Source of the DNA: Fimbriimonadaceae bacterium
GTDB taxonomy: Bacteria; Armatimonadota; Fimbriimonadia; Fimbriimonadales; Fimbriimonadaceae
Assembly: GCA_019638835.1 (NCBI GenBank)
Contig: JAHBTC010000014.1
Coordinates: forward strand, 1 to 36,888
Direction of reading: 5' to 3'
Length of the DNA stretch: 36,888 nucleotides
Shown: positions 4,317-35,867 of the stretch, one piece after another
How positions within the stretch are numbered: position 1 is the stretch's first letter
Layout: each line of letters starts with the position of its first letter
Program-made: the position numbers and the translations under genes
The notes under the pieces: model-generated
What the model was told of the DNA's origin: nothing
The model's input: the letters and a program-made list of their open reading frames with translations, nothing else
The model's database searches: none

Positions 4317-4586
4317 TTAGGAAGCCTTGGCGGCTGCCGCCGCCTTCGCAATTCTTGAGAGGCGTCGTCGGGCTTGGTTCTTGTGAATGATGCCTTTCTG
4401 GGCAGCACGATCAATGTTTTTCTGAGCGCGGACAAGCGTCGACTCGATCGTGGTGGCATCGCCCGCTTCCATTGCCTTTCGGACGTTCTTCACGTATGTC
4501 TTGAGCGCTGTGCGCTTCGAGAGGTTGCGGACGCGCTTCTTCGCGATTCTTCGCAGATCTTTCTTAGATGATTTGAGGTTAGCCAT
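4317..4586 (-). CDS. rpsT: 30S ribosomal protein S20
   Basis: S20 binds 16S rRNA in the body of the small subunit early in assembly. The 89-residue product has the family's usual length and lysine/arginine-rich helical make-up: MANLKSSKKDLRR at the N-terminus, RTALKTYVKNVRKAM in the middle, and GIIHKNQARRRLSRIAK before an alanine-rich tail. The ATG gives the canonical MANLKS start. The gene sits 51 nt after the unrecognised 606-residue protein and 54 nt before the GH20 gene, both on the same strand. A perfect inverted repeat occupies its leader, which may bear on its expression since S20 synthesis is autoregulated in Escherichia coli. Confidence 0.97.
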   Translation of the reverse strand: MANLKSSKKDLRRIAKKRVRNLSKRTALKTYVKNVRKAMEAGDATTIESTLVRAQKNIDRAAQKGIIHKNQARRRLSRIAKAAAAAKAS

Positions 4587-4637: not shown

Positions 4638-6458
4638 TTAGTCCTTTTTGATGAACTTCTTCTTGGTCTTGTCGAAGCCTTGCTCGACCTTCTTGTGATC
4701 GTAGTGCCAAACCGGCGAGCCCGATCGTTGATAGAAACAGACGTAACTACTGAGAAGCGAAGCTAGTAAGCGTCGGCTGGTTCGGCGTACCACGTTGATC
4801 TCCCACAAAATCGTGAGGAAGTCGGCGCCCTTGCCCCAGTGCGTCATTACTTCGCGCAGAATGTCAAAGGTGGACATGCCTTCCGCTCGCTCGGCAATCT
4901 CACGCAGTTCTTCCATGCGCTGATTACTGATGTAAACAACGGGATCTGTCTGGTCAAGCCACTGGAAGTCGAACACGTTCGGCTGGCCCGTTTGCGTCAA
5001 CTGGAAGACTGCGCCGGATTCAACGGCTTGATCGAGCCACCAATCGAAGAAACCAAAGATCAGGCGCAACTTCATATTGAGCCAAACCTGAAGTTTGCGT
5101 CCCATGGGATCGATCAAGATCACTTCTTGAATTTCCGGCTTCTCGTCGAACCATCCCGTCGGGAACTGAGCGATAGAGAAAGTACCAAGCTCGCGGTGAA
5201 TCGGCTTCAAGACAAGTCTGATCGTGTCGGTCTTGCTCTTCGGCGCCGGCATGATGTCCTCGTCAAGGACATCTTGGGCCAACGGGTGCACAATGAGCTT
5301 TCGCAGCGACGTGCTCAAGCCGTCATCCATCAATTCGGCGTCCACAGGGTCGCCGTCTTCTTGGAGCAAACCACTATTGACGTATTCAAACGGTTCAGGC
5401 ACCTCTTCGATGTAGTCCGGAGCGGTGCCCGGGACTCGGAATCGGTCGCCTCCAACCCACCAGACTCTCTTGTCTGCGGTGAGGGCCGCTTTCACGTTGG
5501 CCAAGTCATCGGGGAATGTCTTGACTTGGGGAGTGATTTCGAAAATCTCTTCGAGCAACTTGGTCGCGGTAACAGTTTCGTCGCTCTTGACAATCTTGCT
5601 GACCATCGACTCAATGTTCTCTGGCTTCAATTCCAGCGGAACGGCTTCTTCAATCTCTACCGTCGGTGCTAGTTTGTCCGCAAGCTTGCTCGCCGTAGCA
5701 ATCCACTTTTTGGCATCGTCTTCTGGGTGAATGACCCCGTCGGCCGAAAGCACGAAACCCGGAACGCTAAGCAAGTCGGCGTAGAACGACCGCCAATCGA
5801 AGAGATGCGTCACCGTCGGGTCTTGCGGGTTGAGAACTTTCCATGCGGCCGCGCCAATCGCTTTGATGCTTGCAGGAGCCGCCTTTTCGAGCGCCATGAT
5901 CACGGCGTCAGGCGCGAGCCAATCAAACTTTCCGAGCGACTTTTCAACTGCCGCAACCTCGGTCTCGTCGACACCATTCAGGCGCAGGGCCCGGTCAACG
6001 CTCTCATCGGTAGCCCGGAATACGATCTCAGCCGGAGCGACTTGTTCATCCTTGGTAAGGAGCAGCACGGCATCTTCCTGCGCGGTTCGGCGTACCATGG
6101 CCACCGCTTCTTCGTCGGTGAACGCATAGCGGCTACTCATTTCTTGGGCCAGGAGCGCAACGGGTACCGGAGCTCCAAAGCTTCGAGACAAGGAAAGAAG
6201 GGCTTCGTGAGCGGGTCTACCGTCCGAAGCGACCCGCGCCGCGGGCACCCATCGTCGCTCATGGTAAGCGAATGCATGCTCGTTTGACGCGAGCAATGAA
6301 CGCACCGCGCTCAAGCCGAGTCCGGATCCAGAGAGTCGCTCCGAGATTTCACTCGGTTTTACAACCTCTCCGATTTCAACTAATACTTCTAAGATAAGGC
6401 GGTCAGCGTACAGGCGAGCGTTGTGCTCTTCGGGCTTGATTGATACAGTCGTAGCCAA
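4638..6458 (-). CDS. Unrecognised 606-residue protein with repeated winged-helix-like units
   Basis: I do not recognise this protein. There is no signal peptide or membrane segment, so it is probably cytoplasmic. Several stretches share a layout: a hydrophobic helix, a helix-turn-helix-like pair, then a short aromatic or basic wing ending in R/x-x-P. They are near residues 15-75 (LILEVLVEIGEVV to YHERRWVPAAR), 80-145 (LLSLSRSFGAPVPVALL to DAVLLLTKDEQVAP), 280-345 (ESMVSKIVKSDETV to KRVWWVGGDRFRVP) and 540-590 (FDILREVMTHWGKGADF to SPVWHYD). This resembles HARE-HTH or other winged-helix modules, but only weakly. The tail is lysine-rich (KKVEQGFDKTKKKFIKKD). I place the start at TTG 6458, which has GAGGA six nt upstream; an in-frame TTG at 6473 would add five residues but would lie on that Shine-Dalgarno. 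It lies between rseP and rpsT on the same strand. Confidence 0.75.
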   Translation of the reverse strand: MATTVSIKPEEHNARLYADRLILEVLVEIGEVVKPSEISERLSGSGLGLSAVRSLLASNEHAFAYHERRWVPAARVASDGRPAHEALLSLSRSFGAPVPVALLAQEMSSRYAFTDEEAVAMVRRTAQEDAVLLLTKDEQVAPAEIVFRATDESVDRALRLNGVDETEVAAVEKSLGKFDWLAPDAVIMALEKAAPASIKAIGAAAWKVLNPQDPTVTHLFDWRSFYADLLSVPGFVLSADGVIHPEDDAKKWIATASKLADKLAPTVEIEEAVPLELKPENIESMVSKIVKSDETVTATKLLEEIFEITPQVKTFPDDLANVKAALTADKRVWWVGGDRFRVPGTAPDYIEEVPEPFEYVNSGLLQEDGDPVDAELMDDGLSTSLRKLIVHPLAQDVLDEDIMPAPKSKTDTIRLVLKPIHRELGTFSIAQFPTGWFDEKPEIQEVILIDPMGRKLQVWLNMKLRLIFGFFDWWLDQAVESGAVFQLTQTGQPNVFDFQWLDQTDPVVYISNQRMEELREIAERAEGMSTFDILREVMTHWGKGADFLTILWEINVVRRTSRRLLASLLSSYVCFYQRSGSPVWHYDHKKVEQGFDKTKKKFIKKD

Positions 6459-6463
6459 AGGAA

Positions 6464-6469
6464 TTCCTC
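6464..6469 (-). promoter_or_regulatory. Ribosome-binding site (GAGGAA) that sets a TTG start
   Basis: GAGGAA on the minus strand lies about 6 nt upstream of the TTG at 6456-6458. It overlaps the codons that would follow the alternative TTG at 6473, which favours the downstream start. Confidence 0.55.
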
Positions 6470-6513
6470 GCAAACAAGGGGCGAACGTTTATTCTGGCAC
6501 AGACAGGCTCAAT

Positions 6514-6551: not shown

Positions 6552-8177
6552 TCATTCTTCGGAATCTGTCTTTTCTGGCGTAATGGAGGACGCTGACTGT
6601 GATGCTTTCGGTGCTTCGTTGTCTTCCGATATCCGCCCCAAATCTAGCGTCGCAGCGCTGAGCATGAGCAACATGATCAACACAAATCCAACGCTTGTCA
6701 CAGCACGCTGGAAACCGATGCTCAATCGTTTACCTTTCGTGAACAACTCCAAGAAGTTGATGACGATCTGGCCCCCGTCTAGGGGAGGCACGGGCAAGAG
6801 ATTCATTACGCCCAAAGTTAGACTGAGCATCGCCGCCAGCAATGCGATGCCCCCAAAACCCGACTGGCTAGCGACATGCGTCACCCGCGCGATAGTCACC
6901 GGCCCACCTACCGTATCCTTCGCGCTTTCCGGCTTGACAACCAAACGAGCCAATCCCTTGACCAAGACGTAAGGTTGCCGCATGGCTTCTGAAAACGCTG
7001 CCCCGACCGTCATGCGGTCGTATTCGAACCCGGGAGCAACTCCAATCTGAGCCCGACGTTCACGCTCGCCGGGGATTGGATCGCCATCGGCGTCCAAAAC
7101 CATCAGCTCCTCCTCACTGAGCTGAGGGGTGAGGGTCATCGTTTGCTGTGTCCCCGCACGATCGACAATTACTTCAACGGGCGTGCCTTCATTACCGCGC
7201 AATGCATCTTTGATCTGTTCGAATTTTTCGATTGACTGTCCATTTACGGATAGGATGAGATCACCTTCTTTCAACCCTGCTTCGGCCGCAGGCATATCGG
7301 GGGCAACCATCCCAACTCTTGCCGCTTCAACCGGCCCGTACCGTCCTTCCGTTGACCAAAGAGCGGTCAGGACAAGCACACCAAACCCAACGCTAAACAG
7401 TGGTCCCGCGAATAGAGCCGCCAATCGTGCCCACGGATGCTTACTGTAAAATCCATTCGGCACTTGAGTTTCACTCCCGTCATCCTTTGGGTGCATCCCT
7501 TTGATGCGCGCAAATCCACCGAGCGGAAGCAGGAGCATCGAGAACTCAGTTCCGTTCTTATCAACTCGATGCCACAATGGCCGGAATCGGACCGGAATGT
7601 ATTCCCCGCGAGCCATGATTTGACCATGGCCCTGTTCGTCCTCGTCACTATTGCTGACTGGAGCGTAATAAGTGATCAGCATCGCAAAGAGTGCCGCCGC
7701 AACGGCGAGACCAATCACAATCTCTGGCTGTGGCGTCTTGAACCCAGTCGCAAAGAGCAGCATGACGATTCCGGCGAGGAACGCTCCTCCGAACCTTAGG
7801 TAGGGTGTGCTCTCCGGCAAGTGATAGAGCCGAGTGAGGTTGACTGCGGCCAGTAGTGGGACGATCACGCCCGCAATGGCCAGGCCGACGTCGGTAATCA
7901 GCGATGAGTTGGCGATTGTGCCGACGATCATCACAATCAGACCGGCACCCGCGCCGTACCAAAGAAAACGAGAAGGAATCGTTGGACGGTCTAGATACGG
8001 AGTGAGATCGGTCTTGCGAACGCCGCCCATCATCACTGCAAACGCTTCGACTTCCATTCCCATCCACCGGGCCACGAGATAGTGTCCCAACTCGTGAACC
8101 GCCACCAGAATGGTGATCACGAGCATGAACTGGATGGCCGTATTTGCCACGCTTAGTACTGATTCCCAGCCACTCAT
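6552..8177 (-). CDS. rseP: RseP-like site-2 intramembrane zinc metalloprotease with a multi-pass insertion
   Basis: This 541-residue M50B protease cleaves transmembrane segments in the inner membrane; the best-known substrate is the anti-sigma factor RseA, giving envelope-stress signalling. H28-E-L-G-H32 supplies two zinc ligands and the catalytic Glu in the first membrane helix. LLPVPPLDGGQ (Asp467) supplies the third ligand. One PDZ domain is clear (about 285-350; AAEAGLKEGDLILSVNG). Two or more C-terminal helices follow (about 440-465, 490-510), then a polar tail. Unusually, residues about 72-172 between HELGH and the LLPLGGF segment contain roughly four extra hydrophobic helices, making the protein about 90 residues longer than E. 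coli RseP. It lies 32 nt downstream of dxr on the same strand, a common dxr-rseP pairing. The upstream AAGGAAAGAGAG is a plausible ribosome-binding site. Confidence 0.92.
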   Translation of the reverse strand: MSGWESVLSVANTAIQFMLVITILVAVHELGHYLVARWMGMEVEAFAVMMGGVRKTDLTPYLDRPTIPSRFLWYGAGAGLIVMIVGTIANSSLITDVGLAIAGVIVPLLAAVNLTRLYHLPESTPYLRFGGAFLAGIVMLLFATGFKTPQPEIVIGLAVAAALFAMLITYYAPVSNSDEDEQGHGQIMARGEYIPVRFRPLWHRVDKNGTEFSMLLLPLGGFARIKGMHPKDDGSETQVPNGFYSKHPWARLAALFAGPLFSVGFGVLVLTALWSTEGRYGPVEAARVGMVAPDMPAAEAGLKEGDLILSVNGQSIEKFEQIKDALRGNEGTPVEVIVDRAGTQQTMTLTPQLSEEELMVLDADGDPIPGERERRAQIGVAPGFEYDRMTVGAAFSEAMRQPYVLVKGLARLVVKPESAKDTVGGPVTIARVTHVASQSGFGGIALLAAMLSLTLGVMNLLPVPPLDGGQIVINFLELFTKGKRLSIGFQRAVTSVGFVLIMLLMLSAATLDLGRISEDNEAPKASQSASSITPEKTDSEE

Positions 8178-33917: not shown

Positions 33918-35867
33918 TTACTTAGCCCTCACGAATCCGCGATCTTGCCAGGTGCTTCGCAGCAACGTTGGACTACGCGGCAGGTTGAGGTCAATCAACG
34001 GTTGTCGAGACGGACCACGCTCACGGATTCGATTGTCGTAGTTCATCCGAATCGGAAGTGACCACGTAACGATGGCTTCGTCTCTCGCAATGAGAGTTCC
34101 ATTGAGAGCCATCCCACCACCAGAAGTGCCAACGTTTCCTCCTCCGCAGAAGTTGGTATAGATGACCGCGTCAATCTGGTTTACGCCTTCGGCCGCACCA
34201 TTGATGACGGAGTCCGGCAGCGTAGATTGATACTTGCGACGTCCGGAGGAATCAATTTCCATCGCGTTAAACGCAGGGATGTAGTTTCCTTGCTCATCAT
34301 AGCGACCCTTCGTAAACGGTGGCTGCATATAGTACAACGGGTATGGGTTGCTGAACGTTGTCGGATTGCCAAGAATGACGGAACCGCGGGCGGCGAGACC
34401 AAGCATGTTCTTCTTTTCGTTGGCGTTTTCAATCGTTTGCGCGTTCGCTCCAATGAATGAGGGCGGGTCAACGTAGCGGACTGAACCGATGACGTGAACG
34501 TTGCGGCCAGTGTAGATTGTTCCCTGACCAGAGACATAGCCCTTGATCGCGACGTCTTGCGTGAAGACCACCGGGCCGTGTATCCGAATTGGGTTTGCCG
34601 CTGTTCCCACGAGGAGCGCCGATCCGTTATAGACTCCGTTCGTGGTCAGTCGGACCCATTGCACGGGCTTCGGGCCGGCTCCATCAGGATCAGTCCAAAC
34701 GTCTACGTAGGCACCTGTGTAGTTGACATTCGGAGTGCCATCGCCATTCAAGTTGTTTGTGGCTCCGGCGCTTCCTGCGTAATTCGGATTGGCTGACCCA
34801 TCAGCCCAGGTTGCACGGGTGTCGGTATAGGCGTTTGCCATCGTCTGGTAGCGCGTGATGTCGCTCAGATCAGGCATGACCAGTTCATCGGTGGGCTGCG
34901 TATCAAGCGTGCCAATCACTGGAGCCATTCCTGCAGAAGTCTTCTGCCAACTCTGGGTACCGTTGGCGCTCTGCAGTGCCGCTCCGAACGCACGATTGCC
35001 TTCAATCTGGGCTTGAGAAAAGAAGACCAAATCACGCCACTTTTCGAACTCCGAAGAACCAATCGCACCATGCTTTGACGGATCGTATGCTTGGCGCATT
35101 CGAGTGCGATGCGGAGTCGCCGCATTGTTTACTGTCGCGGCGTACGAAGCGTCGGTCTGCTTCACTGCCGGGTTGTTGATCAGTCCGGCGGCAGGTGGAT
35201 CCAACTTGGTATTGTTTGCCGCCACCATCGAGCCATTGATCATTCCGGTGCCCGAAATGAACTCGAAATTTCCATTGGCGCGCATGTCCCCGTTGACAAT
35301 CAGGTTTGTCTCATTGAATCCGGACATCCAACCGTAGTTGTTGATGAAGTACGTGTAGTCAAAGATTCCGGATCGGGCGAGCTCGAAGTTAGCCGTAACG
35401 TCCACGGTCATATTCGGCTCACCGGTATCTAGCAGCCCGTTGTTATTGCGATCAATCCAACCGACTGACCGGACAATCGCGGCTCGCCGATAGGGATCTG
35501 AATCTGGTGTGAAATAGCTGATCACACCTGCCGCATATCGGCCCACTCCAGGCAGTTCGCCAGAGATCGTAGATCTGGGACTGCCGGGAGAAGCACTCCC
35601 ACATGCCGCGTCCATCGAGTCAAATAGCTGATTTTGCTTGAAGGGCTTCCAGAGCGATAGCAAAACATTCTGCACACCTGCTTCTGTCAGATTAGAAGCT
35701 TGGAGTTCGGTTGTTTGCGCCCTTGAGTCTCGGATGGCTTGGGTCGAATAATCAATGTAGCTGACGCTTCCGACGGCCAGAATCAACATCAGGCCGAACG
35801 AAGTGACAAGGGCATTGCCACGTTGCTTTCGCATGCGTCGGACGAAGTTTTGGCGGAATTTCTTCAT
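33918..35867 (-). CDS. Very large PilX-like pilus assembly protein, 649 residues
   Basis: The N-terminus (RMRKQRGNALVTSFGLMLILAVGSVSYIDY) is the PilX-type start: basic residues, QRG-x-ALV and one hydrophobic helix. An amphipathic helix follows (QAIRDSRAQTTELQASNLTEAG). PilX minor pilins are usually under 200 residues; here about 500 more follow. They are rich in Asn, Gly, Thr and Tyr with beta-helix-like stretches, for example NLIVNGDMRANGNFEF at about 188 and GPVVFTQDVAIKGYVSGQGT at about 430. GRNVHVIGSVRYVDP follows. This part is probably an exported adhesive or structural domain. No calcium or protease motif stands out. It overlaps the PulG-like gene by TAATG, and the gene after it overlaps its stop. 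Confidence 0.82.
   Translation of the reverse strand: MKKFRQNFVRRMRKQRGNALVTSFGLMLILAVGSVSYIDYSTQAIRDSRAQTTELQASNLTEAGVQNVLLSLWKPFKQNQLFDSMDAACGSASPGSPRSTISGELPGVGRYAAGVISYFTPDSDPYRRAAIVRSVGWIDRNNNGLLDTGEPNMTVDVTANFELARSGIFDYTYFINNYGWMSGFNETNLIVNGDMRANGNFEFISGTGMINGSMVAANNTKLDPPAAGLINNPAVKQTDASYAATVNNAATPHRTRMRQAYDPSKHGAIGSSEFEKWRDLVFFSQAQIEGNRAFGAALQSANGTQSWQKTSAGMAPVIGTLDTQPTDELVMPDLSDITRYQTMANAYTDTRATWADGSANPNYAGSAGATNNLNGDGTPNVNYTGAYVDVWTDPDGAGPKPVQWVRLTTNGVYNGSALLVGTAANPIRIHGPVVFTQDVAIKGYVSGQGTIYTGRNVHVIGSVRYVDPPSFIGANAQTIENANEKKNMLGLAARGSVILGNPTTFSNPYPLYYMQPPFTKGRYDEQGNYIPAFNAMEIDSSGRRKYQSTLPDSVINGAAEGVNQIDAVIYTNFCGGGNVGTSGGGMALNGTLIARDEAIVTWSLPIRMNYDNRIRERGPSRQPLIDLNLPRSPTLLRSTWQDRGFVRAK

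Follow-up and report, generated by a model that had tools for sequence, protein, structure and literature searches.

Locus and Gene

What is encoded by the 606-residue open reading frame (ORF) that lies between an rseP-type protease gene and rpsT in the window, the whole 36,888-nucleotide stretch of DNA that was analyzed? A sequence-only reading had placed an unrecognized protein of no known family here, with tandem winged helices and a possible regulatory or nucleic acid-binding role. The ORF list and the Pfam-named genes on either side agree with that placing, the three genes sharing one strand (Table 1), and the protein still belongs to no named family: no Pfam or NCBIfam entry is matched above its curated cut-off. 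Among open-license PMC papers, no title about this protein was found. A weak Pfam match to an enzyme family, 3-PAP (E = 0.22 and 0.027), falls far under the cut-off and was taken as chance. Elsewhere in the window, a 649-residue ORF (33918-35867, minus strand) has no Pfam match at E = 1e-5.

Table 1. Positions of the gene, its signals, its neighbors and the predicted parts of its product
Feature	Residues	Window position	Strand	Basis
Whole gene		4638..6458	-	606 codons plus stop, TTG start at 6458; 606 aa
Shine-Dalgarno-like GAGGA		6465..6469	-	Sequence; start position kept in close relatives
Extended -10-like element TGCCAGAAT		6491..6499	-	Comparable element, similarly spaced, in Fimbriimonadaceae-like relatives
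rseP-like M50 protease gene, upstream (context only)		6552..8177	-	Pfam (Peptidase_M50 plus PDZ)
rpsT (ribosomal protein S20), next gene downstream		4317..4586	-	Pfam PF01649
WH1	9-80	6219..6434	-	AlphaFold2; VIA Z 7.6 to TtgV 2xro, 7.5 to Zbp1 9j89
WH2, HARE-HTH-like	83-146	6021..6212	-	RNA polymerase delta profile match; repeat of WH1
WH3	183-246	5721..5912	-	AlphaFold2; weak in-register profile match to WH2
WH4	279-343	5430..5624	-	AlphaFold2; VIA Z 7.3 to 5fyw chain X, transcription initiation complex
Acidic connector, net charge -13	344-408	5235..5429	-	Conserved motifs in profiles A1 and A3
Predicted B3-type pseudobarrel	about 409-505	4944..5234	-	VIA Z 9.9 to NGA1 5os9; repeated in L051
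Region equated with B3 N-arm	419-434	5157..5204	-	Hand placement
Region equated with B3 C-arm	457-470	5049..5090	-	Hand placement
C-terminal winged helix	509-593	4680..4934	-	AlphaFold2; fold matches via L051 model
RRTSRR turn and recognition helix	558-571	4746..4787	-	Among the protein's most conserved parts
C-terminal tail, basic	594-606	4641..4679	-	Charge count

Five Predicted Winged Helices

An AlphaFold2 model computed from 69 sequences (mean pLDDT 91.8, pTM 0.61) contains five winged-helix (WH) units, each arranged as helix-helix-helix-strand-strand; because of the pTM of 0.61, the relative placing of the domains is not fixed. The tandem winged helices proposed earlier are thus present in the model. 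The repeats are real as well, by profile-profile comparison and in the model, but the earlier count of three, perhaps four, was wrong: each of the four landmarks then named falls in a winged helix (RRWVPAAR in WH1, LTKDEQVAP in WH2, GGDRFRVP in WH4 and SPVWHYD in the C-terminal unit), and WH3 had been overlooked. Neither of the outcomes that the sequence-only reading had named as speaking against it, a model devoid of winged helices or a clear match to a characterized enzyme family, was obtained. Profile-profile comparison relates WH1 to WH2 with 92% probability and WH2 to WH3, in register, with 30%. WH2 reached 11% with the C-terminal unit and 7% with WH4; WH1 stayed below 5% with WH3, WH4 and the C-terminal unit, and the other unit pairs, together with all pairs that include the middle β segment, stayed below 10%.

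The resemblance to HARE-HTH proteins that had been noted earlier is echoed in one unit, WH2, by a weak profile match. By profile, WH2 matches best in the PDB to the N-terminal domain of RNA polymerase delta, which is of the HARE type (E = 0.0012-0.0077 with profile A1 and 0.0045-0.016 with profile A3), and by fold it matches 8x6g_E, a chain of an RNA polymerase-promoter complex (VIA Z 6.6). Pfam HARE-HTH (PF05066) itself has no match with E ≤10 in the window protein, nor anywhere in the window's genome, and is listed for one of 24 family members (E = 0.0035). Separate HARE-HTH matches occur at G009:C84:5246-5455, G012:C29:3005-3202 and G065:C1:2706149-2706337.

The delta match raises the question of whether the protein is an RNA polymerase-associated factor like that of Bacillus, acting through WH2 and the acidic connector while its C-terminal half stabilizes the DNA contact. 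The connector is conserved, and the place for such a role is not taken by a separate delta, since HARE-HTH is unmatched in the window's genome; it was found in only 3 of 21 genomes searched. However, the E-values are weak, some proteins with HARE domains do not bind polymerase, and delta is a small protein in which a single HARE domain is followed by a disordered acidic tail, quite unlike this mostly confidently modeled, multidomain chain of 606 residues. We regard this role, which overlaps with the DNA-regulator reading developed below, as distinctly unlikely.

A Predicted B3-Type Pseudobarrel

Between WH4 and the last winged helix, the model places a β domain of seven strands, which the earlier architecture had missed and which was recognized by fold only. 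The B3 pseudobarrel superfamily fold has seven strands in about 100 residues. NGA1 (5os9) leads the structural comparison (Z 9.9, rmsd 2.7, 95 residues aligned), followed by VAL1; the best 20 PDB matches are B3 domains, counting 1yel and 4i1k, which we take to be such; 19 are plant domains and the other belongs to the restriction enzyme LlaJI.R1. Restriction-enzyme B3 domains score Z 6.5-8.2 against this model, LlaJI.R1 reaching 8.2.

A second model covers the C-terminal half of a homolog, L051, with 28% identity to the window protein along its length; the input of 32 sequences, all less than 40% identical to the window protein, gave a mean pLDDT of 91.2 and a pTM of 0.85. Its top matches are VAL1 and ARF1 (Z 10.1; rmsd 2.8 over 96 residues for 6j9a), and the LlaJI restriction B3 reaches Z 9.1, so that in both models plant B3 domains match at least as well as those of restriction enzymes. 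After B3 come matches to its C-terminal winged helix, namely Zur-DNA (4mtd, Z 7.9), Fur and histone H1x (both Z 7.3), with FoxP3 and KAT6A also present; winged-helix Z scores of 7.3-7.9 are a level that common arrangements reach too. As both models share the family, L051 is a repeat and not a wholly independent test. On the two models, residues about 409-505 are predicted to adopt the B3 DNA-binding pseudobarrel fold.

Other searches gave a fainter signal. Foldseek ranks B3 first (best E = 0.01 for the window model and 0.002 for the L051 model), with no match at E = 0.001 or better for either, and a search of viral structures gave nothing at E ≤0.001. With the limit set at E = 10, Pfam B3 is absent among the families listed for the B3 segments of 69 members, and profile A5 retrieved no B3 chain from the PDB. 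Profile-profile comparison with plant B3 gave a probability of 7.8%, as high as which came 1 of 150 column shuffles; 81 columns were aligned, against 33 in the longest alignment among the shuffled controls.

The two B3 arms were equated with regions of the window protein from the profile alignment and the ABI3 arm positions given in an excerpt of PMC8398556, not by residue-level superposition. In profile A5, H421, G425 and T426 are invariant in the N-arm region, and N461 and L466 are nearly invariant in the C-arm region. The arm regions carry 3.24 and 2.87 bits of information vs. 2.55 elsewhere in the domain, a difference that is partly circular because the arms were set by hand with the conserved positions already in view.

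Conservation and Charge

Along the whole protein, mean information peaks in the last winged helix and the tail (3.50 bits for helix 562-571) and is lowest in WH2 (1.78 bits) and WH3. Four arginines, R558, R559, R562 and R563, precede or begin helix 562-571 and form an RRxxRR turn. The two halves of the protein differ in charge: the last 67 residues (540-606) have a net charge of +8, and WH1 through WH4 each carry a mild negative charge (-1 to -5). The B3 region has a net charge of -4, which is unexpected for a DNA binder.

Distribution of the Family

Homologs are present in 95 of the 101 genomes searched, the window's own included, and in 77 of the 78 among these with at least 90% completeness and at most 5% contamination. 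A profile search over 205 genomes from the phylum, each at least 90% complete, recovered the gene in 194, with a single match in 190 of the 194 carriers (read by eye from the table). The family is thus a core gene of its phylum, mostly in single copy; it is not strictly universal, since all six searched genomes of family f40 (G221-G226) are among the 11 without a match. The single-contig genome G043 yields two overlapping matches for the family gene (contig 1, 1919666-1921476), which points to a frameshift or sequencing error.

Judging from the named loci that carry the family, the phylum of the surveyed genomes is presumably Armatimonadota. A contig scan, which sees only proteins with either of two short motifs, confirmed 93 stretches, 80 of which were kept as loci; their names are Armatimonadetes lineages or simply "bacterium," and the named carriers include Fimbriimonadaceae, Chthonomonas and others. 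Identity to the window protein drops to 20% at the family's edge. No homologs outside the phylum were found in a limited search comprising this two-motif scan, viral contigs (profile A2), plasmids (homolog L041 as query) and phages (window protein as query), the last three giving no match.

This distribution bears on a restriction or defense function, the one suggested by the bacterial B3 domains of the literature. LlaJI.R1 (Z 8.2 and 9.1), BfiI, NgoAVII, UbaLAI and EcoRII are all among the structural matches. Yet no nuclease domain is found in the AlphaFold2 model or by Pfam and NCBIfam profiles, and the gene is core, mostly single-copy and set among housekeeping neighbors. At E = 0.01 the window protein has no match in PADLOC or PHROGs, PADLOC gives only two single-member matches (E = 0.003-0.008) among 24 members, and neither phages nor plasmids gave a match to the respective query. 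We rejected such a function, on architecture, distribution and neighbors, as very improbable.

Neighboring Genes

Neighbors were counted at 95 loci, called close at 40% or more identity to the window protein and distant below 40%. L065, L066, L067, L081 and L088, measured at 32-35%, were assigned to the distant group and five further loci at 55-63% to the close group; the fragments L113 and L128, the loci L031, L038, L039 and L050 (same places as kept loci) and L001-L030 were omitted. Counts of rimO, gltX and rpsT used profiles built from neighbor clusters, and NCBIfam naming was applied to representatives only, with RimO (three representatives), GltX (one) and S20 (one) over the cut-off.

The ribosomal gene beside the ORF, to which the sequence-only reading had drawn attention, recurs in the close group, where rpsT lies downstream at 33 of 42 loci; the distant group has rimO and gltX instead. 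There, among the 49 loci whose upstream flank reaches at least 400 bases, 37 have rimO in that stretch and on the strand of the family gene, and gltX is found downstream within 500 bases at 25 of 47. At 11 distant loci the rimO frame ends where the frame of the family gene starts (gap 0, stop codon not counted), which suggests that the two genes are coupled. Neither rimO nor gltX is present at L034-L037, which belong to the distant group and are of the same order as the window. The gene downstream of these four encodes a coiled-coil zinc-ribbon-like protein in place of S20, with CxxC pairs in L034 and L035; that of L034 resembles CdsZ (62.8 bits vs. a cut-off of 275).

The hint drawn earlier from the in-line envelope-stress protease did not hold. 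Upstream rseP is confined to the window, L101 and L106 (3 of 95 loci), and we accordingly treat the link as local and reject a connection with envelope stress through rseP. At two distant loci, L117 and L127, an rseP-like gene lies downstream.

The recurrence of rimO, gltX and rpsT speaks for a factor that binds RNA or ribosomes in translation or in ribosome assembly, with tandem winged helices like those of the SelB C terminus and a β domain for RNA or protein. A weak Foldseek match to a SelB fragment (1lva, E = 0.077, probability 0.30) and the Egalitarian-RNA complexes among the fold matches of WH1 (Z 6.6-7.0) are consistent with it. Housekeeping neighbors say little about mechanism, however, and we know of no need of RimO or GltX for such a partner. 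Searches with Pfam and NCBIfam detected no RNA-binding family by sequence in the window protein or in 24 members, and B3 domains, in the excerpts of the literature available, bind double-stranded DNA. A translation role, the chief rival to the DNA-regulator reading given below, is in our judgment unlikely.

Start Codon and Upstream Signals

Under one start-choosing rule, 60 of 69 members start with a codon other than ATG: TTG in 28 and GTG in 2 of the 32 close members, and GTG in 19 and TTG in 11 of the remaining 37. The aligned position of the window gene's TTG is conserved among close relatives. For neighbor genes in the same loci (rpsT, gltX, rimO, dxr and one further motif) the figure is 14 of 74, these controls being genes found by five short motifs and not a genome-wide sample. 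Fisher's test returns P = 5e-17 for the excess, a value that is overstated because the sequences are related. The excess suggests a constraint on translation.

Upstream of the start codon, 17 of 32 Fimbriimonadaceae-like regions contain TGCCATAAT with at most one mismatch, vs. about 0.1 in shuffles, this -10 consensus having been composed after 12 of the 32 regions had been viewed; the best sites start 41-55 bases ahead of the start codon in 23 of 32. In the window, the element and the short leader after it occupy 6459-6499. Word enrichment upstream is explained at least partly by the shared coding start and TTG context. Taken together, the -10-like element and the non-ATG start make it probable that the gene is transcribed from a promoter of its own and has a weak start. 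Low-abundance regulators often have a weak start. A structured mRNA leader was considered and rejected: across 25 folded leaders, including one mis-chosen 11-base leader (L085), the mean z is -0.8 vs. mononucleotide shuffles and the structures differ, although a short hairpin ahead of the Shine-Dalgarno sequence can be drawn in many of them.

Proposed Function

Given its core distribution and its predicted B3 domain and five winged helices, the protein probably acts throughout its phylum as a core regulator of genes or a binder of the chromosome, and the nucleic acid-binding role once offered as a possibility becomes probable on the predicted folds. The reading that we favor, at a rough probability of 0.55, is a chromosome-encoded housekeeping factor that binds double-stranded DNA, as a global transcription regulator or in chromosome architecture. 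B3 (about 409-505) and the last winged helix (509-593) would pair up as a bipartite reader of double-stranded DNA, B3 gripping the DNA by its two arms, and the RRxxRR turn, the recognition helix and the basic tail would belong to the same half. The mildly acidic WH1 through WH4, with the HARE-type WH2, and the acidic connector would serve as a protein-contact arm, perhaps toward RNA polymerase, and the weak start codon may keep the protein at a low level. The gene, its conservation, its start codon, its neighbors and its predicted folds are the computed basis from which we infer DNA binding, the division of labor between the halves, the regulatory role and the low abundance. The translation-related neighbors, the faint B3 signal at the sequence level and the acidic B3 domain count against reading the protein as a DNA regulator.

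A more specific version is tentative and, in our view, somewhat doubtful: as a hallmark of the phylum, the protein would act globally on transcription or on the chromosome, read DNA by B3 and thereby represent a cellular, non-restriction lineage of bacterial B3 domains. If the B3 assignment is true, the fold would have a new use in bacteria, in a core, mostly single-copy protein that is not a restriction enzyme; if DNA binding is true as well, bacteria would have a B3 lineage outside restriction. The model-based probable DNA-binding factor, lineage-wide in a little-studied phylum, is a concrete target.

Comparison with Known Systems

The individual folds are known; the combination of B3 with five winged helices, and its setting, were not found described in the parts of the open-license PMC literature that were covered. 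SelB is an EF-Tu-like GTPase with four added winged-helix domains. The serial winged helices are alike, and the weak match to 1lva covers the winged-helix part of SelB only; the window protein has no Pfam or NCBIfam match to a GTPase family. The C-terminal winged helix shares its fold with those of Fur/Zur and linker histones (4mtd, 2xig, 2lso; Z 7.3-7.9, a level common arrangements reach), yet differs in its RRxxRR turn, in lacking a metal-binding dimerization domain and in being fused after B3. With RNA polymerase delta (2krc, 6zfb, 7f75; E = 0.001-0.016) the alignment spans residues about 87-160, WH2 being one of five such units in an overall architecture that is not delta-like.

B3 domains have been described, in the excerpts available of PMC6599366, PMC4081073 and PMC4267653, in plant transcription factors and restriction enzymes. 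The pseudobarrel resembles that of the restriction enzymes (LlaJI.R1 6c5d, BfiI 3zi5, NgoAVII 4rd5, UbaLAI 5o63 and EcoRII-N 3hqf; Z 6.0-9.1), whereas the window protein has no nuclease partner domain, a housekeeping setting and the status of a phylum core gene. It is likewise similar in fold to the plant domains of NGA1, VAL1, FUS3, LEC2 and ARF1 (5os9, 6j9a, 6j9b, 6j9c and 4ldv; 93-96 residues, Z 9.5-10.1), and its conserved polar positions fall roughly at both of the DNA-contacting arms, as placed by hand. Identity to the plant domains is 6-17%, with no significant sequence match, and, in contrast to them, the window protein is bacterial, carries five winged helices and has a shorter C-arm region. 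A bacterial B3 domain of this kind, if true, would bear on the origin of the plant B3 transcription-factor family and provide a further setting in which to test it.
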